64,000 bases of DNA from Rhodanobacter sp. Soil772 (GTDB lineage Bacteria; Pseudomonadota; Gammaproteobacteria; Xanthomonadales; Rhodanobacteraceae), in assembly GCF_001428385.1 (NCBI RefSeq), contig NZ_LMSK01000002.1:836704-900703 (forward strand), read 5' to 3'. The notes under the pieces were generated by a model. It was not told the origin of the DNA and did not search any database. It saw only the letters and a list, made by a program, of their open reading frames with translations. A program made the position numbers and the translations under genes. Of this stretch, positions 3,710-29,729 are shown piece after piece (within the stretch, counting starts at the first letter, position 1; every line of letters begins with the position of its first letter).

Positions 3710-3849
3710 GTTCGTTCCTCTACGCCGCGCACCCGCGCACGGCTCATGTGTTCAATGAGCTGACGGCAAGCGGGGGGAAGACGGAACGACGGGCAGGCAG
3801 GAGCGACCGACACGTGGTTCGGCCTCGCCCACCGCGAGCCACCAGGAAT

Positions 3850-4058
3850 CGTTCGGGCCGGTCTCCGGGCTGACGAGTGGCCTGCGGTGTTCCGCAGGCC
3901 GTGAACGGCGCCTTCCCGTGCTGCGCACAGTGGCATCCGCCGTTCGTGGATCTCGCTTACCGTTGCGGGGGCAGCGCCGGCCTTGCAGTGCGTTCGCACA
4001 CCACGCACCGGCTTCCCGTTTCATCCGTCGGGCCATGAGCCTTCGGGACACCTGAACC
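3850..4058 (-). promoter_or_regulatory. Cobalamin (AdoCbl) riboswitch
   Basis: Read on the minus strand, this leader shows the conserved cobalamin-aptamer blocks in order: GCCGGTGC near the start, the B12 box region CTGCCCCCGCAACGGTAA (around 3960-3977), GCCACTG, GGGAAGGCG and the closing CAGCCCGGAGACCGGCC (around 3856-3872). About 140 bases separate the aptamer from the receptor start. It should lower expression of the downstream receptor when cobalamin is plentiful. The expression platform (terminator or sequestered ribosome site) was not resolved. Confidence 0.93.
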
Positions 4059-4060
4059 GC

Positions 4061-4474
4061 GCAACTCTAACCCTGACGCGAAGCTCGCGCAATCGGACAC
4101 CTGCGTTAAGAGGGCGTTTTCAGGTTCCGACCCTATTGTTCTAACCGCTGCGTACGTTTCACAAGCTAGTACTCACATTAGCTAAACAAGGAAACAATAA
4201 TCGCAAGTTATTGTAAGTCAATTAGCCTGAAATCGTAATTACTTACTAATTGGTGATGACTTATAAACATTTTGTTGACGTCAGTATTTATGTCGTTTTA
4301 TGTTCGGACAGCAGGTTGTTAGATGTCATGGATACAAAGCGACGACATGAGGCCACATGCCTGCCTGATGGACCCATCGGCGGCGGCCAACATGCATCGG
4401 CTTGCTGATCGATGCGCTGATCGAATTACGTCACTCGGCCTTTGGGCCTTCCACTCTGGGGAAATTCATTACCA
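4061..4474 (+). promoter_or_regulatory. AT-rich divergent intergenic region upstream of the Oar-like receptor
   Basis: No gene is seen. Roughly 4110-4330 is strikingly AT-rich for this genome, with many TTA/TAA runs, while the flanks return to high GC. It must carry the promoter of the downstream receptor and that of the riboswitch transcript. A weak candidate promoter for the receptor is TTGACG at 4275 with TTATGT 17 bases later; this is a guess. The composition would suit a nucleoid-protein (H-NS/MvaT-like) binding region. Confidence 0.4.
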
Positions 4475-16958: not shown

Positions 16959-17600
16959 GTGAGCCCCATCGAACAGAAGCAGCAGCAAGTCGAAACCCTC
17001 ATGCGGCTGGCGCCGGTGATCCCGGTAGTGATCATCGACGACGCGAAGGCCGCGGTGCCGATGGCGCGCGCGCTGGTCGCCGGCGGCATTTCGACGATCG
17101 AGGTCACCCTGCGCACGAGCGCCGCGCTGGAGGCGATCCGCGCGATTGCCGCCGAAGTGGAAGGCGCCGTGGTCGGTTGCGGCACCGCGCTGACCGCGCG
17201 CGACCTGCAGGCCGCGCTGCAGGCCGGCGCCCGCTTTGCCGTGTCGCCCGGCACCTCGCCGCGCCTGCTCGACGCCGCCGACGACAGCGCATTGCCGCTG
17301 CTGCCCGGCGTCGCCACCGCCAGCGAGGCGATGGCCCTGCTCGAACGCGGCTATCGCCACCTGAAGTTCTTCCCCGCGGTGCCGGCCGGCGGCACCAAGC
17401 TGCTCGGCGCCTGGGCCAGCCCGCTGCCGCAGATCCGCTTCTGCCCCACTGGCGGCATCAGCCTGGTCAACGCCGCGGACTTCCTCGCCTTGCCGAACGT
17501 GCTGTGCGTCGGCGGCTCATGGCTCACGCCCGCCGACAAACTGGCCAGCGGCGACTGGGCCGGCATCGAGTTGCTGGCACGCGAGGCGGCCGCCCTCTAG
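16959..17600 (+). CDS. eda: 2-keto-3-deoxy-6-phosphogluconate aldolase
   Basis: Cleaves KDPG to pyruvate and glyceraldehyde-3-phosphate, the last Entner-Doudoroff step. The 213-residue class I aldolase contains ALVAGGISTIEVTLRT, VGCGTAL, the Schiff-base lysine in YRHLKFFPA and FCPTGGIS. The start is GTG at 16959, with an AGGAG ribosome site at proper spacing. It is the last gene of the operon; a palindromic hairpin follows 25 bases later. Confidence 0.97.
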   Translation: MSPIEQKQQQVETLMRLAPVIPVVIIDDAKAAVPMARALVAGGISTIEVTLRTSAALEAIRAIAAEVEGAVVGCGTALTARDLQAALQAGARFAVSPGTSPRLLDAADDSALPLLPGVATASEAMALLERGYRHLKFFPAVPAGGTKLLGAWASPLPQIRFCPTGGISLVNAADFLALPNVLCVGGSWLTPADKLASGDWAGIELLAREAAAL

Positions 17601-17624
17601 GCAATGTCTGGGCAAGCCTTTGCT

Positions 17625-17652
17625 CGTCATTCCGGCGAAAGCTGGAATGACG
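17625..17652 (+). terminator. REP-like hairpin after eda
   Basis: CGTCATTCC and GGAATGACG are perfect inverted arms around CGGCGAAAGCT. This is a familiar dispersed palindrome type in proteobacteria and stands where the operon should end. No T-tract follows, so Rho-independent termination is not certain. Confidence 0.5.
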
Positions 17653-17786
17653 GCTTGTTCGGAGCTTCCCCGGGAGGCGCCTCGGATGGCCGACATTCCT
17701 GCGCGCCAGCAGCCGGCCGATAGTCGGCGAGTCGCGAGCGGTCGGCGTTTTCAACCCGGGCGTCGTCGCTGATCCGGACTCGCGAC

Positions 17787-17817
17787 TGAAGAAAATCACA
17801 GGAAGTGATTTTCTTCA
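17787..17817. repeat. Perfect 13-base inverted repeat
   Basis: TGAAGAAAATCAC and GTGATTTTCTTCA are exact reverse complements separated by AGGAA. The A-rich left and T-rich right flanks would allow bidirectional termination, but no gene reads into it from the right. It may also be an operator or an element end. Confidence 0.55.
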
Positions 17818-17903
17818 CAAGCTCGCAGTCAAACGCAGCCGGGCACCGCAACCTCGCCTAGCGCTTTCAGACTGGGGCAGTCCATACCCACTCTGATGGT
17901 TCG

Positions 17904-17923
17904 CTGGGTCACCGGTGACCCAG
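17904..17923. promoter_or_regulatory. Perfect 20-base palindrome upstream of the redox operon
   Basis: CTGGGTCACCGGTGACCCAG is a perfect palindrome with no spacer, 267 bases before the cytochrome start. This form suits binding of a dimeric regulator. No regulator gene lies next to it. Confidence 0.4.
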
Positions 17924-17973
17924 GGCCACCGTGCGCATGACACGCCAACCCCTTGCATGGACCCGATGACGAG

Positions 17974-17989
17974 TGCCACGGTCGTGGCA
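17974..17989. promoter_or_regulatory. Second inverted repeat upstream of the redox operon
   Basis: TGCCACG, two bases, CGTGGCA: exact seven-base arms. It lies 50 bases from the 20-base palindrome and about 200 bases before the first gene. The rest of 17653-18190 holds no gene that I can support. Confidence 0.35.
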
Positions 17990-18190
17990 TGGATGTTGCT
18001 GATTCGTCCGTGGGTCGGACCATCTGGAAGGGGCAAAGACAGCCGCCGTGTTGCTGGCATCAGGATGTTGCAAAGCCTGACGTTTCGCTGCCGAAACGGA
18101 GTCGGGTTCGCTCTGCGGCTTCGCCGTGGAGCGGGCGGCGCGCCTGTGCATGGTTGCCACCTCTGGGCACTGGAAGTCAGGAGGATCGCA

Positions 18191-20716
18191 ATGATTTCGT
18201 ATCACTGGCGGTGGGGAACATTGTTCTTGCTGGTGGGCCTGATCGTCGCGGGCTGCTCCGCGCACAAGCAAGCCGAGCCCGGCAAGGTGCTCGATGAAGC
18301 CAGACGGGCCGGTCGCGATGGCGCTTCGTTCCCGCAGGCGTCGGAGGACTACTTCCATGACATGGACGGTGCCCTGGCGCTGACGCCGGACGAGATCAAG
18401 GGACGCAACATGTGGCTGGTCTGGAGTGGCGGCAACGACTACTTCTGGAACCGCATGAGCGACTACACGTTCGGCGCGTTCGACCTGCTGAAGACCATCA
18501 GCTCGCACCCCAGCCTGGGCTACTCGCGGGACGACCGCTGGAGTCGGTTCGGCATGGTCAACGAACCCTGCTTCGAGAAGGCGGCCGGTCCCGACAAGGA
18601 TCGCCGTGGTCTGTGGTTGGACGTGCGCGGCAAGGACTGCCCGGCCGATCCGTTCGAGAATGAAAGCAAGTACCCGGGCGTGGCGGTCGGTTCGCGCGGC
18701 AAGCCCCTGGGCGACGGCACCACGCAACCGGTGGGTTCGTTCTACGGCTATGCGACCGGCATCGTCGGCCTGCGCCTGTTCCCGAATCCGGACTTCGATG
18801 CCAAGGCCGCCAAGGCCTGGGATCCCGAGCGTTACTACACCGATCCCTCCTACTACAACCGCAAGGATCTGGTGCGCCCGTACCGGGTCGGCATGTCTTG
18901 CGGTTTCTGTCATGTCGGCCCGAGTCCGGTGAAGCCGCCGGCCGATCCGGAGCATCCGGCATACGCCAACCTCAGTTCGTCGGTGGGCTCGCAATACATG
19001 TGGGTCGATCGCCTGTTCCTGTTCAACTCGAACAAGCCGGAGGGGCGCACGAATTTCATGTACCAGCTCGTGCACACGTATCGGCCGGGCACGATGGACA
19101 CGTCGCTTGTTTCGACCGACAACATCAACAATCCACGCACGATGAACGCGCTCTATGACTTCGTGTCGCGCCTGGGAGTGGGCAAACGCCTGTGGCACGA
19201 AAAGCTCGCCGGTGGCGAGCGTGACAACAAGCAGCTCAACGACTTCGTCAGCAACGGCCCGTTGACTGAGTTCTATACCAAACCGGATGCGGTGCGCATG
19301 CCCCACATCCTGAAGGACGGCGCCGATTCGGTCGGCCTGCTCGGCGCGCTCAACCGGGTCTATCTCAACATCGGGCTGTTCGGCGAGGAATGGCTGCTGC
19401 ATTTCAACCCGGTCATCGGCGGCAAGACGATCACGCCGATCCCGATTGCGACCGCACAGAAGAACTCCGGGTACTGGCAAGCCACCGAAATGGGTACGCC
19501 GAACACGGCGCTGTTCTTTCTGAAGGCCGCGCAGCCGGATTATCTGAAGGATGCGCCCGGCGGCGCCGCGTATCTGAGCACCGATGCGGCCACGCTGGAT
19601 CACGGCAAGCAGGTGTTCGCCGATACCTGCGCCCGTTGCCATTCGAGCAAGGCGCCGCGACCGCCAGTCGACCTCGGCCTGAATCCGGACAAGTGCGCTG
19701 GCACCGGCTACCTCGACTGCTTCAAACACTGGTGGACCTGGACCCAGACCGACGACTACAAGGCGCAGATGCGCACCATCGTCAAGGCGGACGACTTCCT
19801 GCAGGGCAACTATCTTTCGACCGATGCGCGCATCCCGGTGACCCTGCTGCGCACCAACGTGTGCAGCCCGCTGGCGACCAACGCACTGGCCGGCAACATC
19901 TGGGACAACTTCTCGTCGCAGTCGTACAAGCAGCTGCCATCGGTCGGCACGGTGACGCTCAGTGATCCGTTCACCGGCGCACCGATGCCCTATGCGATGC
20001 CGGCCGGAGGGCGTGGCTATACCCGGGTGCCCTCGCTGATCGGCCTGTGGTCCACGGCGCCGTTCCTGTTGAACAACGCGGTCGGCCCGTTCTCCGGCGA
20101 CCCCTCGGTGGGGAGTCGCATGAAGGTGTTCGACGCCTCGATCGAGCAGATGCTGTGGCCGCAGAAGCGCGAGCACGATGCCGTTCTCGGCGACAAGCTG
20201 CCCGGCACCATCGACCGCACGACGCAGCGCAGCGAGATCGTCATTCCGGCCGGCTACGCGCCCAACGCGCTGCAGGCGCTGCGAGGCCGGCTGCACCGCT
20301 GGTTGCCGTGGCTTGTCGGCGACGGCGACGACATCACGATCGGGCCGATACCGAAGGGCGTGCCGGTCGGGCTGCTCACCAACCTCAAGCTGCGCGCCGA
20401 GAGTACGGATCCGGCGGCGATCGCCGCTCATGTCCGCGACACCGGCGAGATGCTGCTCAAGCTCAAGCTGGATCTGGCTGCGGCCCCGGCAAACGCCAGC
20501 GACGAGGATCTGCGCGCCCGCTTCGCGAACCTGAAGGCACCGATGATGCGACTGAGCAAGTGCCCGGACTTCGTCGTCAATCGCGGCCACTACTTCGGCA
20601 CGGCGCAGTTCAACCAGCAAAAAGGCCTGAGTGCCGACGAGAAGGCATTCGGCCAGGTACCGGAGTTGAGCGACGCGGACAAGCGCGCGCTGATCGAGTT
20701 CCTCAAGACGTTCTGA
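18191..20716 (+). CDS. Diheme c-type cytochrome lipoprotein (MauG/RoxA-like, tentative)
   Basis: An 841-residue exported protein. The signal sequence ends in a lipobox (IVAGC, Cys22), predicting a periplasmic lipid-anchored protein. Two haem c motifs are present: CGFCH at residues 237-241 and CARCH at 480-484. A later segment, RVPSLIGLWSTAPFLLNNAVGPF, resembles the region in MauG/RoxA-type diheme enzymes that reads as LRNVxxTxPYxHNG in simpler relatives. The roughly 240-residue gap between haems is near that of the rubber oxygenase RoxA, but the RoxA link is inference; it could be a peroxidase, an oxygenase or an electron acceptor. ATG at 18191 has a perfect AGGAGG site. It heads a six-gene operon, and the next gene, a GMC oxidoreductase, begins 17 bases later, suggesting that the cytochrome may accept its electrons. 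Confidence 0.85.
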   Translation: MISYHWRWGTLFLLVGLIVAGCSAHKQAEPGKVLDEARRAGRDGASFPQASEDYFHDMDGALALTPDEIKGRNMWLVWSGGNDYFWNRMSDYTFGAFDLLKTISSHPSLGYSRDDRWSRFGMVNEPCFEKAAGPDKDRRGLWLDVRGKDCPADPFENESKYPGVAVGSRGKPLGDGTTQPVGSFYGYATGIVGLRLFPNPDFDAKAAKAWDPERYYTDPSYYNRKDLVRPYRVGMSCGFCHVGPSPVKPPADPEHPAYANLSSSVGSQYMWVDRLFLFNSNKPEGRTNFMYQLVHTYRPGTMDTSLVSTDNINNPRTMNALYDFVSRLGVGKRLWHEKLAGGERDNKQLNDFVSNGPLTEFYTKPDAVRMPHILKDGADSVGLLGALNRVYLNIGLFGEEWLLHFNPVIGGKTITPIPIATAQKNSGYWQATEMGTPNTALFFLKAAQPDYLKDAPGGAAYLSTDAATLDHGKQVFADTCARCHSSKAPRPPVDLGLNPDKCAGTGYLDCFKHWWTWTQTDDYKAQMRTIVKADDFLQGNYLSTDARIPVTLLRTNVCSPLATNALAGNIWDNFSSQSYKQLPSVGTVTLSDPFTGAPMPYAMPAGGRGYTRVPSLIGLWSTAPFLLNNAVGPFSGDPSVGSRMKVFDASIEQMLWPQKREHDAVLGDKLPGTIDRTTQRSEIVIPAGYAPNALQALRGRLHRWLPWLVGDGDDITIGPIPKGVPVGLLTNLKLRAESTDPAAIAAHVRDTGEMLLKLKLDLAAAPANASDEDLRARFANLKAPMMRLSKCPDFVVNRGHYFGTAQFNQQKGLSADEKAFGQVPELSDADKRALIEFLKTF

Positions 20717-20733
20717 TCTCCGGCAGCCGCCCC

Positions 20734-22626
20734 ATGGACAGTACTGAAGGGCCCGCGTGGGATTACGTCATCGTCGGCTCGGGTGCCGGCGGCGGCACGC
20801 TGGCGGCGCGCCTCACCGAAGCCGGCATGCGCGTCTTCCTGCTCGAAGCCGGCGGCGATGCGTGCACCACGGATGCGCCATGCCTGCCGGACGACTACGA
20901 CGTGCCGGGCTTCCATCCGTTCGCCAACGAGAACGCCGCGATGAGCTGGAGCTTCGAGGTTCGCCACTACGCCGAGGAAGATCGTCAGGCGCGCGATCCC
21001 AAGTACGACGCCGCGCGCGGTGGCGTGTTCTATCCGCGCGCGGCGGCACTTGGCGGCTGCACCGCGCACAACGCGATGATCTTCATGCCGCCGCACGATT
21101 CCGACTGGAACCACATCGCGCAACTGACCGGCGACCGCTCCTGGCGTGCGTCGCGCATGCGCCGCCATGTGCGGCGCGTCGAGGCCTGCCATCACCGGCG
21201 CGTATGGCGGGCGCTGCGCTGGCTCGGCATCGATCCTACCGGACATGGCTGGAACGGCTGGTTGCGCACCGAAAAATCGATGCCGCTCGAGGCGCTGGGC
21301 GACGAAGCCATGGTGCGCGTGGTGGCCGAATCCGCGCGCAGCTTCGTGCATGCCCTGCCCAGGCCCCTGCTCGGTGTCCTGCGGTGGCTGCGTCGTCCGG
21401 GCGATCCCAATGCGCGGATCTGGGGGCAAGGCAGCTTCGAGGGACTCTGCTACACGCCGCTGTCCACCGCGGGGCACCGGCGCACCGGCGCACGCGAGCG
21501 CGTGAAGCAGGCGCAGAACGCGCACGGGGATCTCCTGCACATCGAACTCGATGCGCTCGCGACCCGGGTGATCTTCGACAACGGGGGGACGGCCTGCGGG
21601 GTCGAATACCTCAAGGGGGCACGCCTCTACCGTGCGCATCCGGCCTGCAGCGATGCACCGGGCGAACGGCGGGAGGTGCGCGCGCGTCGCGAGGTGATCC
21701 TGTGCGGCGGCGCCTTCAATACGCCGCAACTGCTGATGCTCTCCGGCATCGGCCCGGCCGCGCATCTGCGCGACCACGGCATTCCGATCCGGGTCGATCT
21801 GCCGGGCGTCGGATGCAATCTCCAGGATCGCTATGAAGTGGCGGTAACGCACCGCATGCGGCAACCCTGGAGCGTGCTCGCCGGAGCCCGCTTCGAGCGC
21901 GGCGATCCGCTGTGGCAGCGCTGGAGCGCTTCACGCATGCCGGTTCCGCTGTGGCGGCGCTGGCGCAGACCGGGCGCCGGCATGTACGGATCCAGTGGCG
22001 CAGCGATCGCACTGATCCGCCGCTCGGCATCCGCTGTGCCGGAACCCGACATTTTCTGCATGGCCTTGCCGACGCGGTTTGAAGGCTACTCGCACGGATT
22101 CTCGCAAGTCATCCGCAGCCATCTCGACTATCTGACCTGGGCAGTGCTGAAGGCGCATACGCTCAATCGCGCCGGCACGGTCAGGCTGCGTTCGGCCGAT
22201 CCGCGCGACACGCCGCGGGTGAACTTCCGTTATTTCGAGGAAGGCAGCGACACCGCGGGCAAGGATCTGCAGGCCGTCGTGCAGGCGATCCGGTTCCTGC
22301 GCCGGCTGACCGCACCGCTGATCGCCAGCGGCGTGATCGCCGAGGAATGCGCGCCCGGGTCGGCCGTCGAGACCGATGCCGCCCTGACCGACTACGTGCG
22401 CAACACCGCCTGGGGCCACCACGCCTCGTGCTCCTGCCCGATCGGCGCCGCCGCCGAAGGCGGCGTGCTCGACAGTGCGTTCTCGGTGCATGGCGTGCGC
22501 GGCCTGCGGGTCGTCGACGCCTCGGTGTTCCCGCGCATTCCCGGATTCTTCGTCGCCGCGGCGATCTACACGGTGGCCGAGAAGGCGGCCGAAACGATGT
22601 TGCGCGATGCGCAAAGAACGGCTTGA
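20734..22626 (+). CDS. GMC-family FAD-dependent oxidoreductase
   Basis: A 630-residue flavoprotein. The N-terminus carries the FAD fold (DYVIVGSGAGGGTLAARL, then VFLLEAGGD), followed by the GMC signature region AAALGGCTAHNAMIFM, the second signature GGAFNTPQLLMLSGIGP, and the C-terminal active-site WGHHASCSCPIGAA with the catalytic His and DASVFPRIPGFFVAAAIYTVAEKAA. GMC enzymes oxidise alcohols or polyols; the substrate cannot be read here. No signal peptide or Tat motif is seen, so it seems cytoplasmic or membrane-peripheral, although its neighbour cytochrome is periplasmic. ATG at 20734 follows the cytochrome stop by 17 bases. Confidence 0.92.
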   Translation: MDSTEGPAWDYVIVGSGAGGGTLAARLTEAGMRVFLLEAGGDACTTDAPCLPDDYDVPGFHPFANENAAMSWSFEVRHYAEEDRQARDPKYDAARGGVFYPRAAALGGCTAHNAMIFMPPHDSDWNHIAQLTGDRSWRASRMRRHVRRVEACHHRRVWRALRWLGIDPTGHGWNGWLRTEKSMPLEALGDEAMVRVVAESARSFVHALPRPLLGVLRWLRRPGDPNARIWGQGSFEGLCYTPLSTAGHRRTGARERVKQAQNAHGDLLHIELDALATRVIFDNGGTACGVEYLKGARLYRAHPACSDAPGERREVRARREVILCGGAFNTPQLLMLSGIGPAAHLRDHGIPIRVDLPGVGCNLQDRYEVAVTHRMRQPWSVLAGARFERGDPLWQRWSASRMPVPLWRRWRRPGAGMYGSSGAAIALIRRSASAVPEPDIFCMALPTRFEGYSHGFSQVIRSHLDYLTWAVLKAHTLNRAGTVRLRSADPRDTPRVNFRYFEEGSDTAGKDLQAVVQAIRFLRRLTAPLIASGVIAEECAPGSAVETDAALTDYVRNTAWGHHASCSCPIGAAAEGGVLDSAFSVHGVRGLRVVDASVFPRIPGFFVAAAIYTVAEKAAETMLRDAQRTA

Positions 22627-22672
22627 TCGAATCGGGTTTTGTTCACTGCGGGAAACCGCGAAGGAGACTGCC

Positions 22673-23104
22673 ATGCCGTACGACGTAGCGAAACTGCTGG
22701 CCATGACGCAAGCGCAACTGGACGATCTGTTCCGCGCCAGTCCACCCGGCGACATTCCCGATGGCACCGCCGAAGGCACGGCGATCATCGCGCCCGGCAC
22801 CCAATACTCCGAGACCATTGCCAAGGTCATCAACCACTTCGGCTGGCAGGGAAAAGTGTTCGATGCCGCCAACGGCGTGTTGAAGAACAGCATCAGCATA
22901 TTCAGGGTCGAGGCCATCGTCGCCAAGGTCTACAAGGGGCCGAGTTGGCTGGACGGCAAGGAATGCATCGTGCTCGACTACTCCGCGACCTCGCTGGTCG
23001 CGCACTGGATTCGGGACGAGATCCGGCTGATCGATGCCGGCTTCTATCTGGGCAAGGTGTACTGGGGCAAGGATCGCCTGATCGACTTCTGCCTGAAGTT
23101 TTGA
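22673..23104 (+). CDS. Uncharacterised 143-residue protein in the redox operon
   Basis: I do not recognise the family. The protein begins MPYDVAKLLAMTQAQLDDLF and ends DAGFYLGKVYWGKDRLIDFCLKF. It has no signal peptide or membrane helix, and the middle part (EAIVAKVYKGPSWLDGKECI, then VLDYSATSLVAHWIRDEI) reads like a small beta-rich ligand-binding barrel; this is only an impression. The ribosome site AAGGAG is excellent. The gene sits between the GMC oxidoreductase (46 bases upstream) and the membrane protein two bases downstream, so it is co-translated with them and presumably works in the same pathway. Confidence 0.85.
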   Translation: MPYDVAKLLAMTQAQLDDLFRASPPGDIPDGTAEGTAIIAPGTQYSETIAKVINHFGWQGKVFDAANGVLKNSISIFRVEAIVAKVYKGPSWLDGKECIVLDYSATSLVAHWIRDEIRLIDAGFYLGKVYWGKDRLIDFCLKF

Positions 23105-23106
23105 CC

Positions 23107-24405
23107 GTGACGCCGCAATCCCATTTCACGGTGGTGGCACCGCTCGCGGCGGGTCGCGAAGGCGGTTTGCGGGAGTTGCTGGACACGATGAACTCGGCTC
23201 CGGGCATGGCCGATCCGGGCAACGCGATGCTGCCGTTCGGCGCGTTCGAGCGCCTGCACTTCGCGCGACTCGTGCTGCTCGGCGATCCCACGCTTGCCGA
23301 TGTCGAGGCGTATGGTTTTCGACCACCGCAGGCGCCGCTCTACCTCGCCTTCATGGGCGACTGCGATGGGCCGGCGCGACGGATGCTCGCCGACCTGTCG
23401 CAGCGTGCGGAGGCCGGCTTGCGGCAAATCTTCGCGCACTGCGAAGGCTTCGACGCGCACGGCGATCTGCTGACCTGGATGCTCGCGCACGACACGCCGG
23501 TGGCGGCGAACTATGTGAACTGGGTCGGCCGCAGCGTGCTGCAGATACGCCAGGAAAGTGCGCTGCAGCGCGTGCTGAGCGCGAAGGTGGTGCGCCGGCC
23601 GCTGGCATCGGGCGCCGAGGCACAGGCGGCGCGGCGCGGCCTGATTACCTTTGTCGAAGCAGAGAAGCAGGCAGGCCGACTCGCGCTGGCGCCGCCGGAG
23701 CGCACGCCATCGGGCTGGCGCATCGCCAAGTTCGCCAACCTGGTTATCGTGCCGCTGGCCGGACTCATCGCGTTGCCGGTGCTGATCGTGCTGCTACCCT
23801 GGCTCGTCTATCTGCTGCGGACGCGCGAAACCAGCGACCCGGAAATCTGTCCGCGTCCGCAGGCCGAAGCCCTGCAAGCACTGCAGGATCTGGAGGATCG
23901 CGATGTCTCGAACCAGTACACCGCGATCGGCTCGCTGAAGCCGGGGCGGTTTCGCCGCTGGCTGCTGAGCTTGTTGCTGGTGCTGGTCGACTACGCCTGC
24001 CGACACGTCTTCACGCGCGGCCGCCTCGCCCGCGTGCAGACGATCCACTTCGCGCGCTGGGTCTTTCTCGACGACAAGCGCCGCGTCATGTTCGCCAGCA
24101 ATTACGACGGCGGCCATCAAGCCTACATGGACGACTTCATCAACAAGGTGGGCTGGGGCCTGAACCTGCTTTTCAGCAATGGCCTCGGCTGGCCGCGCAC
24201 GCGCTGGCTGATCCTGGGCGGGGCGCGCATCGAGCAAAGCTTCAAGCGCTATCAACGACGGCATCAGATCCCGACCCAGGTCTGGTACAAGGCCTACCCC
24301 GGCCTGGCCCTGGTCGATCTCAAGCGCAACCAGCGCATTCGCGAAGGCCTGGAACGTGAGCGGATGAGCGATGCACAGGCACTGGCCTGGCTGAGGCTGC
24401 TATGA
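23107..24405 (+). CDS. Uncharacterised membrane protein with an internal duplication
   Basis: A 432-residue protein of no family I can name. It has one clear hydrophobic segment at about residues 212-238 (VIVPLAGLIALPVLIVLLPW) dividing two similar halves. Each half has an HFAR motif (residues 51-54 and 314-317) followed by a short loop with two acidic residues, an aromatic or acidic strand ending in DG (MGDCDGP and SNYDGGH), and a helix. The halves recall the ferredoxin-like alpha+beta barrels of the DyP/EthD/chlorite-dismutase structural group, which is inference. The start is GTG at 23107, two bases after the previous stop; its own stop overlaps the DyP start by four bases (ATGA), showing tight coupling to the peroxidase. 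Confidence 0.82.
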   Translation: MTPQSHFTVVAPLAAGREGGLRELLDTMNSAPGMADPGNAMLPFGAFERLHFARLVLLGDPTLADVEAYGFRPPQAPLYLAFMGDCDGPARRMLADLSQRAEAGLRQIFAHCEGFDAHGDLLTWMLAHDTPVAANYVNWVGRSVLQIRQESALQRVLSAKVVRRPLASGAEAQAARRGLITFVEAEKQAGRLALAPPERTPSGWRIAKFANLVIVPLAGLIALPVLIVLLPWLVYLLRTRETSDPEICPRPQAEALQALQDLEDRDVSNQYTAIGSLKPGRFRRWLLSLLLVLVDYACRHVFTRGRLARVQTIHFARWVFLDDKRRVMFASNYDGGHQAYMDDFINKVGWGLNLLFSNGLGWPRTRWLILGGARIEQSFKRYQRRHQIPTQVWYKAYPGLALVDLKRNQRIREGLERERMSDAQALAWLRLL

Positions 24406-25931
24406 AGGCGCAGACACCGATGCATGAAATCGATCGGGACGACATCCAGGGCCTGCTGCGGTCGGGCTACGGTCATCACACCGAAGCCTGTTTTCTGCTG
24501 CTGCGAATCAAGGATCGCGAGGCTGCGCGGGCGTGGCTGGCGGCCGCGCCGGTGACGAGCGCGGCGATGGTCGAGCGGCCGGTCGGAACCGACGCGTCGA
24601 TCCAGCCGGAGCCATTGCCGGAGACCGTACTTCAGTTGGCCTTGAGCAGCGCGGGGCTGCGCGCGCTGGGGATCGCCGACGACGTCATCGAGGGCTTCGC
24701 GGAGGAATTCGTGTCCGGCATGGACGGCGATGCGAATCGCGCCCGCCGGCTCGGCGACGTGGGCGCGAGTGCGCCGGAGCGCTGGCAGTGGGGCGCCGGG
24801 CAGCGCGTGCCGCATGTGCTGGTGTTGCTCTACGCCTTGCCCGGTCACCTCGACCCGTGGCGCCGCACGATCGAGCAGCAATGCATGGCCGGCTTCGACA
24901 CGCTGGCTTGCCTGCAGACCGCCGACTCGCTCGATCGTGAACCGTTCGGTTTCAGGGATGGCATCTCGCAGCCGAAGATCGACTGGGAACGCCAGCGCCC
25001 GGCACGCGACGACGCCCAGCTGGCCTACAGCAACCTGAGCTGCCTGGGCGAGTTCGTGCTCGGTTATCCCAACGAGTACGGCGGCTACACCGATCGCCCC
25101 CTGCTCGATGCGCAACGCGACACGCAGGCCACGCTGCCACGGGCCGAGGATGCGCCCGACCAGGCCGACCTCGGGCGCAACGGCAGCTATCTGGTGCTGC
25201 GTCAGTTGCAGCAGGACGTGCGGGGTTTCTGGACGTTCCTCGACGGCGCGGCCGGCGGCGATACGGATCAGCGCGAACGGTTCGCGGCAGCGATGGTCGG
25301 CCGCACCCTGCAAGGCGTGCCGCTGGTCGCGGCAACGAAGGCGAGCGATGCCGCGGCGTCGTCAGCGGACTTGAATGCCTTCACCTACCAATCCGATCCG
25401 CAGGGTTTGCGCTGCCCGCTCGGCGCCCATATCCGTCGCGCCAATCCGCGCAATGCCGACCTGCCCGCGGGAACGCGCGGCATCATTTCGCGCCTGATCC
25501 GCACGCTGGGCTTCGACGAGGAAGCATTGCAGCAGGACCTGGTCGCCTCCACGCGCTTCCATCGCTTGTTGCGCCGCGGGCGCAAGTACGGGGCTGCGAC
25601 GCTGGCGGAATCGCTGGCCGGCCCACCCGGCGCGCCAGTCGGGCTGCACTTCATCTGTCTGGGTGCCAACCTCGCGCGCCAGTTCGAGTTCGTGCAGGAC
25701 GCCTGGCTGACGGGAACGAAGTTCGACGGACTGACTGCCGAGAGCGATCCGCAACTCGGCACACGCATCCCGGCGCCGGATGGCACGCCCACCGATGGCT
25801 ACTCGATCCCGCAGCCCGACGGATCGGATCGGCGCATCACCGGCTTGCCGCGGTTTGTCACCGTGCTGGGCGGCGGCTACTTCTTCCTGCCCGGCATTCG
25901 TGCCCTGCGCTACCTGGCGGCAGCTCACTGA
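24402..25931 (+). CDS. DyP-type haem peroxidase
   Basis: A 509-residue dye-decolorising peroxidase. The diagnostic GxxDG motif is present as GFRDGISQP with the catalytic Asp at residue 186, the proximal haem ligand is His343 in CPLGAHIRRANPR, and the distal arginine region follows as RFHRLLRRGRKYG. The length is that of the longer DyP classes, not the 300-residue encapsulated class. No signal peptide is seen. It overlaps the preceding membrane-protein gene by four bases and is followed 12 bases later by a catalase-like gene. It would use hydrogen peroxide or an organic hydroperoxide to oxidise an unknown substrate, possibly peroxide made by the GMC oxidase upstream. Confidence 0.94.
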   Translation: MKAQTPMHEIDRDDIQGLLRSGYGHHTEACFLLLRIKDREAARAWLAAAPVTSAAMVERPVGTDASIQPEPLPETVLQLALSSAGLRALGIADDVIEGFAEEFVSGMDGDANRARRLGDVGASAPERWQWGAGQRVPHVLVLLYALPGHLDPWRRTIEQQCMAGFDTLACLQTADSLDREPFGFRDGISQPKIDWERQRPARDDAQLAYSNLSCLGEFVLGYPNEYGGYTDRPLLDAQRDTQATLPRAEDAPDQADLGRNGSYLVLRQLQQDVRGFWTFLDGAAGGDTDQRERFAAAMVGRTLQGVPLVAATKASDAAASSADLNAFTYQSDPQGLRCPLGAHIRRANPRNADLPAGTRGIISRLIRTLGFDEEALQQDLVASTRFHRLLRRGRKYGAATLAESLAGPPGAPVGLHFICLGANLARQFEFVQDAWLTGTKFDGLTAESDPQLGTRIPAPDGTPTDGYSIPQPDGSDRRITGLPRFVTVLGGGYFFLPGIRALRYLAAAH

Positions 25932-25943
25932 CGGAGCGTTGCG

Positions 25944-27173
25944 ATGAACTCGAACACGAGTCGCCCCATACCACCTCCCGATACCGGCTCGGCGATCCTG
26001 AACTGGCTGGCGCGGACGTCCATCAAGCTCATCCAGATCGAGCGCCGCTTCGACCCCTTCGTGCGGCCGGCGTTCGACGCCGTGCTGCGCGACCCGATCG
26101 CGCGCCTGACCACGTACCTGATCAACCGAAAACGCCCGAACGAAGGCCTGGCGATCGCCGAGGAACGGCCGCTGCCCGACGAAGAGCAGTTCGTCGACTC
26201 GATCATCGCCAGTTTCCAGCAGCAGATGCGCCTGCTGTGGAAACCCGGTGGCGTCGAACGCGGCGGCAACACCAAGACGCAAGGCATCGTGCGCGCCGAG
26301 TTCATCGTGCATGACGGCCTGCCTGCCGAGTTGCGCCATGGCATCTATACCAAGCCCGGCAGCTTTCGCGCGTGGGTGCGTTTCTCCGGGCCAGGCCCCT
26401 ACGTCACGCCGGATATCGACGACGTCGGCTTCATGAGCATGTCGGTCAAGCTGCTCGGCGTGCCGGGGCCGAAGTTGATGGCCGAGGAGCAGTTCACCCA
26501 GGATCTGTTCGGCGTTTCTCCGCCGACCTTCGTGACGCCGGACGTGCGCGCCAACGCGCAACTGCAGATCGAAAGCGTGAAGAACGCGCAGATCTTCTAT
26601 TTCCTCAACCGCCAGCGCTCGCACCTGCTCGATCTCATCATGCAGAGCTTGTGGACCAAGACGCAGAGCAGCCCGCTCGAAGCACCGTACTTCAGCTGCG
26701 TGCCGTACCTGCTGGGCGAAGGCCGGGCGATGCAATATTCGTTCTGGCCGAAGACGCGCAAGCGCACGCGGATACCGCGACTGCCGCTGCGCCCACCCGA
26801 CGACTACCTGCGCGCGGCGATGGTGGCCGCACTGGATGCCGGCGACGTGGAGTTCGAGGTCCGGCTGCAGCTGCAAACCGATCCGCACCTGATGCCGATC
26901 GAGAACGCCGGCGTGCTGTGGCCCGAACGCCTGTCGCCGCGCATCCCGGTGGCGACCCTGCGCATCGCGCGGCAGAAGTTCGACTCGCCCGCACAACTGG
27001 ACTTCGCCAAGCGCCTTTCCTACAACCCATGGCACTGCATTGCCGAACATCGCCCGCTGGGCAACCAGAGCCGCGCGCGCCGCCGGATGTATCTGGCCCT
27101 GTCCACCCTGCGCCACCAGATGAATGCCGTGCCGCACTACGAGCCGACGGGCGACGAGGTGTTCGACTCATGA
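25944..27173 (+). CDS. Catalase-family haem protein, unusual active site
   Basis: A 409-residue protein with the catalase fold as read from VRAEFIVHDGL, FRAWVRFSGPGPY, DVGFMSMSVKLLGV and the C-terminal LSYNPWHCIAEHRPLG. In true catalases the strand before this region carries the distal His (VxHAKG); here the aligned stretch is NTKTQG (residues 109-114) with no His. A Tyr (about residue 360 in SYNPWH) is at a place that could supply the proximal ligand, but the surrounding sequence differs from catalase. The protein therefore probably belongs to the catalase-like group related to hydroperoxide-rearranging or peroxygenase enzymes rather than being a hydrogen peroxide dismutase; this is inference. 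It is the last intact gene of the redox operon. Confidence 0.85.
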   Translation: MNSNTSRPIPPPDTGSAILNWLARTSIKLIQIERRFDPFVRPAFDAVLRDPIARLTTYLINRKRPNEGLAIAEERPLPDEEQFVDSIIASFQQQMRLLWKPGGVERGGNTKTQGIVRAEFIVHDGLPAELRHGIYTKPGSFRAWVRFSGPGPYVTPDIDDVGFMSMSVKLLGVPGPKLMAEEQFTQDLFGVSPPTFVTPDVRANAQLQIESVKNAQIFYFLNRQRSHLLDLIMQSLWTKTQSSPLEAPYFSCVPYLLGEGRAMQYSFWPKTRKRTRIPRLPLRPPDDYLRAAMVAALDAGDVEFEVRLQLQTDPHLMPIENAGVLWPERLSPRIPVATLRIARQKFDSPAQLDFAKRLSYNPWHCIAEHRPLGNQSRARRRMYLALSTLRHQMNAVPHYEPTGDEVFDS

Positions 27174-27406
27174 CACCGGACGGTTACATCGCGCAACGGA
27201 TCGTCGGCCGGACCGTGTCGTACGGGCAGAAGGAGCGGGCTTGCCCAATGCAAGCACAACGGCCTACTAAGCACCGAATGCGTCCTCAAGAGGCAATGGG
27301 TCAGGTTGATTCAAATGTGAGTGCTAAGAACGAATCGCACCGAACTGTCAAATACGATTTCAGTGCCCATCGCAACATTTCAATATTTTCCACGCGCATG
27401 AGGTAG
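27170..27406 (+). pseudogene. Truncated gene start coupled to the catalase-like gene
   Basis: An ATG overlaps the previous stop (ATGA), as expected for a further operon member. The first 24 or so codons (MTPDGYIAQRIVGRTVSYGQ) have the high GC of the operon; from about 27240 the composition drops and the frame drifts on to a stop at 27404-27406 with no protein-like character. I read it as the 5' stub of a seventh operon gene cut by insertion of the low-GC block that follows. It could also be a genuine 78-residue protein. Confidence 0.45.
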
Positions 27407-27412
27407 AACACC

Positions 27413-28024
27413 ATGGACATTATCGCTGCCACCTCAGTATTTTTGGTCCTGTTCCTAGCGCCACTGATCCCAGCCTATGCCACATACAAACTTTTGCCGG
27501 CCTCACCGGTGCAGATCACGGGTGTTTTTGCGGGCTTGAAAATCAATGCTGGTGGCGCTTTCGCAACTTTCTTCATCCTATTTGTTGGTCTATTCATCGT
27601 TACGGATGTTGCCCGTACTCTTATCTTGCAACCCATCGAACGCACGCTGCTATGGCGGATCGACGGGCAATACCGCGTAACAGATGAGAACGGAAAGCCG
27701 CTGCATCTTAATGGTCACGACAACCCAGTGAAAGTCAGTCTTGACCCAGGTGGCTCAGCTGTCGATGACAACGGCTCATTCTCGGTCAGAGCATTCAAGA
27801 TCGATGGCGAGCTGCCGACTGTCTGGGTTCAAATCCCCGGCATTTGGTCTGAAAGAGTTTCGTTGAGCTCTGGCAAAGACGATCTCGATATCGACGAAAA
27901 GCAACGTCTGGTCCTTATCAAGAATCCCGTTCTGCTCCGCGTTCTATCGAACGCATCCTCTTATTCACCGGCAGCCGACAACCTTCAGCCAGCTGCCGCC
28001 AACAACGCAGGAGACGGGCCATGA
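27413..28024 (+). CDS. Membrane-anchored hypothetical protein
   Basis: A 203-residue protein with two hydrophobic segments (about residues 4-27 and 46-68) and a C-terminal soluble domain of about 130 residues containing NGKPLHLNGHDNPVKVSLDPG. No family recognised. The start ATG has GAGG eight bases upstream. The next gene starts within its stop codon (ATGA), so the two are translationally coupled. GC content is clearly lower than in the redox operon before it, consistent with acquired DNA. The soluble domain is probably periplasmic. Confidence 0.75.
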   Translation: MDIIAATSVFLVLFLAPLIPAYATYKLLPASPVQITGVFAGLKINAGGAFATFFILFVGLFIVTDVARTLILQPIERTLLWRIDGQYRVTDENGKPLHLNGHDNPVKVSLDPGGSAVDDNGSFSVRAFKIDGELPTVWVQIPGIWSERVSLSSGKDDLDIDEKQRLVLIKNPVLLRVLSNASSYSPAADNLQPAAANNAGDGP

Positions 28025-28347
28025 ATCACATTACAGCTTCAGCCATCTTTGTTGCACTCGGAATCGGAAGCGCCATACCGTGCCATGCGGTCGAAGTGCG
28101 TGGTCGGGTCAACACACAATCGTCAGGAATTGTTGTCCCTCGGTCGAACGTGCCGGTGGCGTTGGTCCACTGCGGCAATCCAAATCAGGCCATCCAGAAT
28201 ACGCTGACGGATCCAAATGGCATGTACTTCTTCCCTGAGGTGGCTGCGGGAAGCTATTGCATCAACATTCCCAATTTCAACACGTTCCCGATTACCGTTC
28301 CTGAGCAGCCAGGGTACGATGTGCCACCCATTATGATGCCGAACTAA
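28021..28347 (+). CDS. Secreted protein with a carboxypeptidase-regulatory/SdrD-B-like domain
   Basis: A 108-residue protein with a signal peptide (IFVALGIGSAIPCHA) and one small beta-sandwich of the type seen in carboxypeptidase regulatory and prealbumin-like domains, with TLTDPNGMYFFPEVAAGSYC as its core. Such domains bind or brace other proteins outside the cytoplasm. It overlaps the upstream membrane protein by four bases, so the pair may form a complex in the envelope; this is inference. Confidence 0.72.
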   Translation: MNHITASAIFVALGIGSAIPCHAVEVRGRVNTQSSGIVVPRSNVPVALVHCGNPNQAIQNTLTDPNGMYFFPEVAAGSYCINIPNFNTFPITVPEQPGYDVPPIMMPN

Positions 28348-28350
28348 GCC

Positions 28351-28827
28351 ATGAAGACTCTACCCATACTGCTATTGCTGCTGTTCCACGTCGCGTTGGC
28401 CGAGTCCACTCCCGCCGATACCGTCAGCTGCAGGCTAAGCGCGTATGACGTTGAACAATATGCGCGGACCCTCGGACGATCAAGCCGCGAAACCAGATTG
28501 AGCGAAAAAGGTAGTTGCCGGATCGACAGGAGCAAGCATGGACTATCGCTGGAAGCAATACCAAGCATGACCCCCCCGACCCTTTGCCGTTTCGTGATTT
28601 TTGGCGATTCCTCCTTGGGCAAGGGTTGGCAGATTCAAGCATTTGCAATCGAAACCACCAGCAATGGCTTGCATCGAACGCCGCCGAACGTGTTCAAGCT
28701 CCGGGCGGACGATCCCGAGAGAGTTGAGCAGGCACTCATAACCACGGTCACCTTTAGAGGTCCCGACTGCAAGAAATGGCATGATGCCTTCGAGCCCACA
28801 ACGCCAACCGGCGATCCCACCCCTTGA
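28351..28827 (+). CDS. Secreted hypothetical protein
   Basis: A 158-residue protein with a signal peptide (LPILLLLLFHVALAES) and four cysteines in the mature part (VSCRLS, GSCRID, TLCRF, PDCKKW), which could form two disulfides. No family recognised. It starts three bases after the upstream gene and completes a three-gene low-GC cassette of envelope proteins. Confidence 0.68.
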   Translation: MKTLPILLLLLFHVALAESTPADTVSCRLSAYDVEQYARTLGRSSRETRLSEKGSCRIDRSKHGLSLEAIPSMTPPTLCRFVIFGDSSLGKGWQIQAFAIETTSNGLHRTPPNVFKLRADDPERVEQALITTVTFRGPDCKKWHDAFEPTTPTGDPTP

Positions 28828-29389
28828 GTTGCTTGGCGATTGCAGGGACACAAATAGCCACCGCAAGGAGAGTCGCGACTGGCGCGATTGCACCACAACA
28901 ATCGACACGATGACGCCACATGCCGGCAGGCCGAATTCGCACTGATCGTGTCGGCGCTGCTCTCCTGTGCCGCGTCCTGGATCATCGTCCGCCGCTATCG
29001 ACGCCGCATGCAGCAGTTGATGCACACGCTGCACACCGGGTAATCGGCAGCACCTGCTGCGGAGGCAGCTCCCGGCGTCCCCGCGCCAGTGGCGGTTTCG
29101 CTCGCCGACAACCGCCGTGCTGGCATGCGGCTTTCCATGCTGCTTATTTCCATACTGCTTATCGCGGTGTCTTGCCTCATCGCGCGGTCGAGCACTCTCA
29201 TCCGGTATGCGGCCCGGTGGTATCGAATGGCAACGACGTTGCCAGCATTGGCTGCGCGATCACGGCATCCCACGGACTGACGCCATGGGCGCATGGAAAG
29301 ATCTCCGTGAAAGACTGGGCGACCCCGGCAAGCCCAGGGACATCCCGCTCCTTTGAGCCGCCAAGCAACGTGCACCGGCGACTCGCGGT
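28828..29389. other. Scarred region without an intact gene
   Basis: No complete gene is supported. At 28921-29043 (+) an open stretch without a start reads ALIVSALLSCAASWIIVRRY, like the membrane-helix C-terminus of a lost gene. The remainder shows short hydrophobic frames on the plus strand only. The region lies between the low-GC cassette and a transketolase remnant and is best seen as deletion and insertion debris. Confidence 0.4.
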
Positions 29390-29645
29390 TCAGGGCTGCA
29401 GCAAGGCCCGCGCCCGCTGCACCACGTTGTCCACGGTGAAGCCGTATTCGCGCAGCAGCACGTCGGGGGGCGGAGGCGCCGAAGCGCTCGATGCCCAACA
29501 TGTCGCCCTGCGCGCTGGTGTAGCGTTGCCAGCCTCGGGCGACGCCCAGTTCCACCGCCAAGCGGGCGGTGACGTCGGGCGGCGGCACGTCGTCGCGGTA
29601 GCTTTGTGACTGCGCCTCGAACAGCTCCCAGCTCGGCATCGACAC
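29390..29645 (-). pseudogene. Transketolase C-terminal remnant, frameshifted
   Basis: On the minus strand the sequence reads VSMPSWELFEAQSQSYRDD, then LAVELGVARGWQRYTSAQGD and MLGIERFGASAP, matching the last 85 or so residues of transketolase almost word for word. A one-base shift in a run of six C (around 29464) breaks the frame, after which LLREYGFTVDNVVQRARALL continues to a stop at 29390. The N-terminal 570 residues are absent; the left junction is the short inverted-end element at 29656. Non-functional remnant. Confidence 0.85.
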
Positions 29646-29655
29646 GAGCAAAATA

Positions 29656-29729
29656 GGAGTCAGAGTAAACTTCTCTATCGGAAGCCTTTTGAAAGGCAAC
29701 TCCGACCCCTGTTTTTGACCCCTGTTTTT
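29656..29729. repeat. Short element with inverted ends, of the kind flanking REP-associated transposase genes
   Basis: GGAGTCAGAGT (29656) and ACTCCGACCCC (ending 29709) are imperfect inverted ends (9 of 11). Inside is the palindrome GCCTTTTGAAAGGC. The right end continues as a tandem pair of GACCCCTGTTTTT. Such 'gggtcagagtaaactt' words are typical borders of RAYT-type elements; the transposase itself is absent. After it, 29737-29853 (+) is a 38-codon open stretch ending in GFDDWRIVVR, probably the tail of a lost gene. Confidence 0.5.

Follow-up and report, generated by a model that had tools for sequence, protein, structure and literature searches.

What might a bacterium do with a dihaem cytochrome, a GMC-type flavoenzyme, a peroxidase, a catalase-like protein and two proteins of no named family that are encoded side by side? 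The question is raised by positions 18191-27173 of a 64,000-nucleotide stretch of the Rhodanobacter sp. Soil772 genome (hereafter the window), which hold six intact open reading frames (ORFs), all on the + strand and with gaps of 17, 46, 2, -4 and 12 bases. In order (genes 1-6), they are designated cyt, GMC, p3, p4, DyP and Cat. This arrangement and spacing had been described in an earlier note on the same DNA, made from the letters alone, and the ORF coordinates agree with it exactly. We propose, with moderate confidence, that the genes encode an oxylipin-type pathway, in which a dihaem lipid dioxygenase (cyt) would form a lipid hydroperoxide that p3, p4, DyP and Cat then handle, with GMC completing the pathway. 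What argues most strongly for this reading is that a fatty-acid dioxygenase-type enzyme occupies the place of cyt in some relatives.

Do the six genes form one set? Relatives were collected by scanning GTDB species genomes with a p4 profile, two p4 peptide patterns serving for selection. Of 146 loci, the best 80 were analyzed and gene presence was scored by tblastn. Variovorax contributes many of these loci. At least one gene is missing from 30 of the 80, in some cases because a contig ends, and one locus (L035) stops inside p4. The earlier note had made its operon depend, beforehand, on conserved synteny in other genomes, and such synteny was found: all six genes are present in 50 of the 80 loci and DyP stands directly after p4 in 79 of 79. 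Counted singly, p3 and DyP were detected in 79 loci each, Cat in 72, cyt in 62 and GMC in 55, some of the absences being contig ends. p3 lies at most 350 bp from p4 in 73 of 79 loci, as does DyP from Cat in 62 of 63 and cyt from GMC in 40 of 44 where both genes of the pair are on the + strand. The exact order of the window recurs in 30 of the 80 loci; in others, cyt-GMC is divergent, downstream or absent, or Cat is inverted. The linkage survives rearrangement, since the set stays together in several different gene orders. The hosts include Variovorax, Rhodoferax, Paraburkholderia, Nitrosomonas, Nitrosospira, Nitrospira, methanotrophs, Sedimenticola and Acidobacteriaceae.

As a second sample, not selected through p4, 299 genomes from the phylum were examined. 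Three of them (the own genome, G330 and G167) contain full-length p4, and p3 and a close Cat are confined to the same three. "Close" denotes E <1e-150, a line drawn after the gap to the next best match (1.3e-63) was seen. With the own genome excluded, the probability that two pairs among the 298 genomes coincide is 1 in 44,253 for each comparison, the Cat threshold having been set afterwards. The C-terminal half of p4 alone was found in 8 further genomes of the 299, and a catalase-family match of some kind at 1e-10 in 30. Because the order is conserved in the 80 loci and three genes share an identical phyletic pattern in the 299 genomes, we conclude that the six genes, as judged from their sequences, are one gene set in operon arrangement that is grouped beyond chance. 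Terminator-like sites between positions 17500 and 28000 are at background (9 versus a mean of 7.4 in shuffles).

The set comprises two sub-modules, cyt-GMC and p3-p4-DyP-Cat, because cyt-GMC occurs without p3 and p4. Among the 299 genomes, strong cyt matches were obtained in the own genome, G330, G281 and G139, with weak pieces in G175. G281 and G139, two of these four, have cyt adjoining GMC without p3 or p4, as is also seen on Rhizobium plasmids, and G167 possesses p3-p4-DyP-Cat without cyt. The sub-modules might hence be functionally separate units that travel together, an explanation compatible with the other readings. However, all six genes stand together in 50 of the 80 loci, in several arrangements and across phyla, and we regard such a functional separation as unlikely.

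What chemistry the set performs is suggested by its variants. Nine loci (L051, L055, L058, L062, L068, L069, L070, L080 and L081) offer about 10 kb upstream of p4 and have no cyt detectable by tblastn. All nine carry a gene for a PF03098-type haem oxygenase/peroxidase on the same strand upstream of p3, as called by Pfam for L051, L055, L062 and L080 and by tblastn to these for the others. In seven of the nine, this gene is of the alpha-dioxygenase type and is followed by a second catalase-family gene, whose product has a distal Gln in the five copies aligned and exceeds the PF00199 cut-off in three of four scanned. L051 and L058 have a gene of a different type that includes TPR repeats. In Nitrosomonas europaea, the gene beyond GMC encodes a PF03098 haem enzyme, the best solved relatives of which are the fatty-acid alpha-dioxygenases 4kvj (3e-54) and 4hhr (3e-51), which we take to be the rice and Arabidopsis enzymes, respectively; it shares the stretches HDW, YRxH and SRRLxxDRFFTS with the rice enzyme. 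Altogether, PF03098-type genes lie within the locus in 17 of the 80 cases, and a PF03098 dioxygenase adjoins a catalase-family gene in 7 of the 80 related loci and nowhere in the genome of the window. Forty of the 81 set-bearing genomes, 39 of them represented among the 80 loci and the other being the own genome, were searched in full: six had an alpha-dioxygenase-type gene and every copy was inside or overlapping the operon locus.

Other enzymes of acyl lipids accompany the set as well. A patatin or class 3 lipase is encoded in 11 of the 80 loci and an alpha/beta hydrolase in 4, giving 22 loci in union with the PF03098 genes; this count rests on seven query proteins at 90 bits or more, so that other lipid enzymes would escape it. 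A large patatin of the type seen in L047 is present in one or two copies in five genomes with an operon-linked one, and in the four of these other than the query's own the linked copy is the best match; the same query retrieved little or nothing from Nitrosomonas genomes. Rhizobium pRL11 encodes, in this order, an NADH:flavin oxidoreductase, a dihaem cytochrome, a membrane protein, a second dihaem cytochrome, cyt, GMC and a patatin. A Mesorhizobium plasmid (L106:14786-19474) carries a GMC-patatin fusion of 1562 residues beside a cyt homologue, the patatin-like domain scoring 26.6 bits against a cut-off of 27.7, and 115 and 70 bits in tblastn. The earlier note had suggested a hydrophobic or lipid-like substrate and hydroperoxide chemistry; the alpha-dioxygenase-type genes in the cyt slot of relatives and the patatins or lipases beside or fused to the set lend this indirect support.

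Two alpha-dioxygenase genes were noted in passing. In Nitrosomonas sp. Nm34 (L052:1288-4137), the frame is split over overlapping frames, reflecting a broken gene or a sequencing error. G183, which is not among the p4 matches, has an alpha-dioxygenase-like gene between two dihaem genes of family NF040606 (L128:2767-10559, G183:C11), together with a gene that resembles NADH:flavin oxidoreductases by inspection.

In the pathway that we favor, cyt would act outside the cytoplasm and insert O2 into an unsaturated acyl chain, yielding a lipid hydroperoxide in the manner of the dihaem 10S-dioxygenase PA2077 of Pseudomonas. The lipocalin-like p3 may carry the lipid product, and the membrane-anchored p4 may hold or position it beside DyP, its fusion partner in some Alphaproteobacteria. 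DyP and Cat, the latter with a distal Asn, would reduce or rearrange the hydroperoxide or cleave its chain, as opposed to dismutating H2O2, and GMC would oxidise the resulting alcohol or aldehyde. The analysis shows the gene content and its conservation, the active-site residues, the folds as predicted and, in some relatives, the PF03098-type enzyme in place of cyt and the link or fusion to phospholipases. The compartments (by sequence inspection), the substrate, the direction, i.e. biosynthesis or breakdown, the order of the steps and the roles of p3 and p4 are what we infer.

How well do the individual proteins suit such roles? With the family models of Pfam and NCBIfam, GMC alone scored above cut-offs, DyP and cyt remained sub-threshold, and p3, p4 and Cat gave no match to either collection at E 0.01. 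Conserved residues were read from homologues with a complete frame (61 for cyt, 46 for GMC, 75 for DyP and 70 for Cat) plus the window's own protein; the alignments A2, A3, A4, A6, A7 and A8 contain 48, 38, 32, 22, 30 and 15 chosen rows, respectively.

The protein Cat belongs to the catalase superfamily by homology: although PF00199 does not match Cat itself, in hhalign it aligned over 322 columns, at 99.9 %, with a protein of Paracoccus that scores barely high enough for PF00199, and the proximal Arg/Tyr haem site is retained (Arg379, Tyr383). At the position of the distal His of catalases it has Asn109, where three aligned catalase-family relatives have His; the His of katE, in an R-x-x-H motif, was located by pattern outside the alignment. 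Asn109, Arg106, Gly108, Arg379 and Tyr383 are each found in 71 of 71 homologues. The catalase-like haem protein with altered active site that the earlier note had recognized is confirmed by these data. DyP reached 26.1 bits with Pfam DyP_N (cut-off 27.5) and 68.6 bits with TIGR01413 (cut-off 100.5). Its profile matched 8re3 at 5e-65, and of the 20 PDB sequences found at E 1e-5, 17 bear the name DyP or dye-decolorizing peroxidase; from these comparisons it is a divergent member of the DyP family. Asp186, His343 and Arg385/388/391/392 are kept in 76 of 76 homologues and Gly187 in 72 of 76. They leave the active site intact, with what we take to be the distal Asp of the GxxDG motif, the proximal His and the distal Arg.

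An intact peroxidase would also suit a system in which nothing is made. The set would then serve oxidative-stress or lipid-hydroperoxide detoxification, with cyt as a periplasmic dihaem peroxidase and with DyP and Cat removing peroxides. Dihaem cytochromes of this superfamily are often peroxidases, and a dihaem gene of NF040606 ("CytoC_perox") adjoins a catalase-family gene, at 177-729 bp, in 6 of 11 genomes over cut-off. NF040606 proteins share with cyt the dihaem cytochrome type and, in these six genomes, the company of a catalase-superfamily gene; they have a haem spacing of 233-241 (five members read) and a C-terminal GH motif. However, the two are separate subfamilies, the six genomes with a catalase neighbor have no match to full-length p4 or to p3, and the one catalase-family neighbor that was read (G155) keeps the distal His. 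Detoxification is further disfavored by the lack, in 71 of 71 Cat proteins, of the distal His needed for catalase and by the Gln of the second catalase-family protein in the five copies aligned, by the oxygen-inserting type of enzyme that takes the cyt slot in seven loci, and by the distribution of p4, as a general stress set would hardly be confined to one of 60 relatives. We therefore consider it unlikely. Examples of the NF040606-catalase pair are L110 and L100 (G155:C1:4141438-4144746), with five similar genomes.

The cytochrome carries a lipobox (VAGC22), the Cys of which is present in 52 of 62 aligned rows, and two CXXCH motifs at residues 237 and 480, both kept in 62 of 62 rows, as is His800. 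FadCcp proteins are described with haem spacings of 245 and 235, and RoxA with 199, in PMC4496055. The spacing of 243 in cyt falls within the 235-245 residues of FadCcp and is nearer to these values than to that of RoxA. The earlier note had called cyt RoxA/MauG-like: the two CXXCH motifs with FadCcp-like spacing speak for this, while the His of the MauG motif is replaced by Leu and curated NCBIfam models gave no RoxA/B/C match at E 0.01. The latter result also bears on the alternative that a RoxA-type dihaem oxygenase oxidatively cleaves isoprenoids, be they terpenoid, hopanoid or rubber-like, and that DyP, GMC and Cat handle the carbonyl products. The dihaem cytochromes upstream in the Rhizobium cluster do show sub-threshold similarity to RoxA/B/C, and GMC could oxidise terpenoid alcohols or aldehydes. 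However, the neighbors in relatives are enzymes of acyl lipids (alpha-dioxygenase, patatin, class 3 lipase), and isoprenoid cleavage appears rather improbable.

GMC was matched by PF00732 (1.4e-21) and PF05199 (6e-28), both above cut-off. In alignments read by eye, His563 corresponds to the catalytic His of choline oxidase and is kept in 47 of 47 rows. Phe606 corresponds to Asn510, in the numbering that we assume for choline oxidase, and is found in 46 of 46 readable rows, one row being gapped. The catalytic pair of His with a second His or Asn is thus absent, which argues against the plain oxidase that the earlier note had envisaged as a source of peroxide. Its other suggestion, that GMC feeds cyt, fared no better. 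By inspection, the N-termini of GMC, p3, p4, DyP and Cat are without obvious signal peptide; because GMC shows neither a signal peptide nor a strong hydrophobic stretch while cyt has a lipobox, electron transfer from GMC to cyt was rejected as first choice.

By sequence, p3 and p4 are indeed of no known family, as the earlier note had stated, but their predicted folds are of known types. For p3, a lipocalin/calycin-like beta barrel was predicted, and for p4 two ferredoxin-like domains linked by a hydrophobic helix; the strongly hydrophobic stretch in mid-protein reaches a best 19-residue hydropathy of 2.99 at residue 212. WhiE-ORFI and Abx(+)O gave the best fold matches to p4. Three plasmid loci of Alphaproteobacteria encode fusions in which a P450-like part is followed by p4, chiefly its C-terminal half, and DyP; the P450-like part exceeds the Pfam cut-off in two of the three. 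Both findings would be in line with p4 being an ABM/SchA-like enzyme as in polyketide pathways, in which case the product may be a small secreted metabolite unrelated to membrane lipids. However, no polyketide, peptide or terpene assembly gene was recognized by eye among the ORF starts of seven loci and the recurrent flanking ORFs, no systematic search having been made, and we hold this alternative to be improbable. The fusions are 1423-1620 residues long (L082:5090-11640, L083:5065-11145 and L084:4983-11100). Each is preceded by a TPR protein, one of which has a guanylate cyclase domain, and a link to signaling is possible.

Several observations weigh against the oxylipin-type reading. The sequence link of cyt to known lipid oxygenases is weak. 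The position of the His in the MauG motif PY[FL]HNGSV is Leu627 in the window (PFLLNN), and the 62 rows have Leu in 55, His in 6 and Gln in 1, so that the His is absent from 56. Against NF040606, cyt scored 35.4 bits (cut-off 150), a profile-profile comparison with its members aligned only 39 C-terminal columns (89.7 %), and a search of the own genome with NF040606 found two other, short places (L102, L103) and not the cyt gene. No RoxA is named among the 51 PDB matches of cyt at E up to 10, and the predicted folds of p3 and p4 show no lipid ligand. The locus counts overstate independence because many loci are close relatives, and the replacement events are not independent because the alpha-dioxygenase loci belong mostly to nitrosomonads and methanotrophs. 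Two loci, L005 (5.7 kb upstream) and L063 (8 kb), have neither cyt nor a PF03098 gene. An alpha-dioxygenase, lipase or alpha/beta hydrolase of the types sought is absent from all 30 loci that share the gene order of the window, and no alpha-dioxygenase was found in the own genome. The link is one-sided because the four of the 299 genomes with alpha-dioxygenase-type genes are all without full-length p4, none being among the three that have it. Finally, two Variovorax genomes have relatives of the large patatin at places apart from the operon, and a third genome has none.

Lipid oxygenation and lipid peroxide chemistry are most familiar from the lipid signals of animals, plants and fungi, and bacterial oxylipins are known from few systems. 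Among the systems closest to the pathway proposed here is the oleate diol synthase operon PA2077/PA2078 of Pseudomonas aeruginosa (10S-DOX and 7,10-DS; FadCcp), whose products are likewise exported dihaem c-type proteins with two CXXCH motifs about 240 residues apart. They are assigned to the RoxA/Ccp superfamily and described as acting on lipids, as dihaem dioxygenase and diol synthase (PMC4496055), and as mainly periplasmic (PMC6377657). Here, in contrast, there is one longer dihaem lipoprotein (841 residues), in which Leu replaces the His of the MauG motif, and the six-gene set also includes GMC, DyP, Cat and two proteins of no family; the likeness is one of description, not of sequence comparison. 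A cyanobacterial 10S-dioxygenase is reported to be paired with a hydroperoxide lyase of the catalase-related type (Brash 2014, quoted after PMC13049297). This pairing of a haem dioxygenase with a catalase-family protein recalls the loci in which a PF03098-type gene directly precedes a catalase-family gene (7 of 80), whereas the window has a dihaem cytochrome instead and the distal Asn in Cat; the Nostoc genes were compared by description only. Finally, the best PDB profile match of Cat, at E 0.0022 and covering about 60 residues, is 1u5u, an allene oxide synthase from coral. Cat keeps the Arg and the proximal Tyr of the coral catalase-related allene oxide synthase/hydroperoxide lyase, but the distal Thr66 and His67 given for the coral enzyme in PMC5617202 are replaced by Gly108 and Asn109 in 71 of 71 homologues.

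Single steps are hence known, i.e. dihaem fatty-acid oxygenases, a dioxygenase with a catalase-related enzyme, and catalase-related allene oxide synthases/hydroperoxide lyases, and the six-gene set was not found described. This statement covers titles and abstract openings of the open PMC literature, with subscription papers outside its scope. The roles of oxylipins in prokaryotes were termed largely unidentified in the abstract of a 2016 article (PMC5155153), and one bacterial signaling role is described in PMC6377657. Going beyond the pathway itself, we tentatively suggest, with clearly less confidence, that three things hold jointly: nitrifiers, methanotrophs, Variovorax and Acidobacteria share a previously undescribed bacterial oxylipin pathway; its slot for an exported oxygenase accepts either of two haem enzymes that are unrelated to each other, a dihaem c-type lipoprotein or an alpha-dioxygenase like that of plants; and the new families p3 and p4, together with catalase-fold and GMC-fold enzymes whose catalytic residues show conserved changes, make a signal or defence lipid from lipid hydroperoxides. 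If true, two unrelated haem oxygenases would fill one pathway position, and a family with thousands of homologues among the matches listed would gain a testable function. Catalase-fold and GMC-fold enzymes with changed active sites would then be available for lipid hydroperoxide chemistry in bacteria of central ecological importance, among them Nitrosomonas, Nitrospira and methanotrophs.

How did Rhodanobacter sp. Soil772 come by these genes? The distance from the end of the edd match to the start of the tlpA-like match is 12,813 bp here. Among 35 congeners, where pairs were identified by eye, 12 have the two matches 756-883 bp apart and 23 show no such edd/tlpA-like pair. Among 60 relatives, p4 is found in the own genome alone. 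All six genes resemble the same loci, with similarities, in gene order, of 78, 72, 80, 74, 66 and 82 % to L003 and of 77, 74, 77, 70, 64 and 82 % to L009, which fits a transfer of the whole block. Horizontal acquisition is suggested by phyletic rarity and interrupted synteny, not by composition, as the operon has a G+C content of 66.3 % and the rest of the window 66.9 %. As far as these comparisons go, acquisition of the operon as a whole block fits the data.

Table 1. Features of the window discussed in the text.
Feature	Position	Strand	Description
cyt	18191-20716	+	841 aa, exported dihaem c-type cytochrome lipoprotein; proposed lipid dioxygenase
GMC	20734-22626	+	630 aa, GMC family FAD oxidoreductase
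p3	22673-23104	+	143 aa, no named family; predicted lipocalin/calycin-like beta barrel
p4	23107-24405	+	432 aa, GTG start, no named family
DyP	24402-25931	+	509 aa, DyP-type haem peroxidase
Cat	25944-27173	+	409 aa, catalase-superfamily haem protein, Asn at distal His position
insertion	17601-29714 (approximate, ends not base-exact)		~12 kb segment interrupting edd-eda / tlpA-like synteny

The same insertion holds three small ORFs at 27413-28827 (+), two of which were measured and have a G+C content of 52 and 56 %. The ORF at 27413-28024 has no Pfam match, and that at 28021-28347 weakly matches CarboxypepD_reg. In Nitrospira and a few others, a lipoprotein of 657 residues and of no family (L004:7250-9964, without Pfam match; also L006-L008, L048, L059, L074 and L075) is mostly accompanied by a p3 paralogue of 246 residues. 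In L004, L006-L008 and L048, both immediately precede p4, and a distant dihaem cytochrome is encoded upstream. Elsewhere in the window, a cobalamin riboswitch was detected at 3839-4070 (-) with 91.9 bits.

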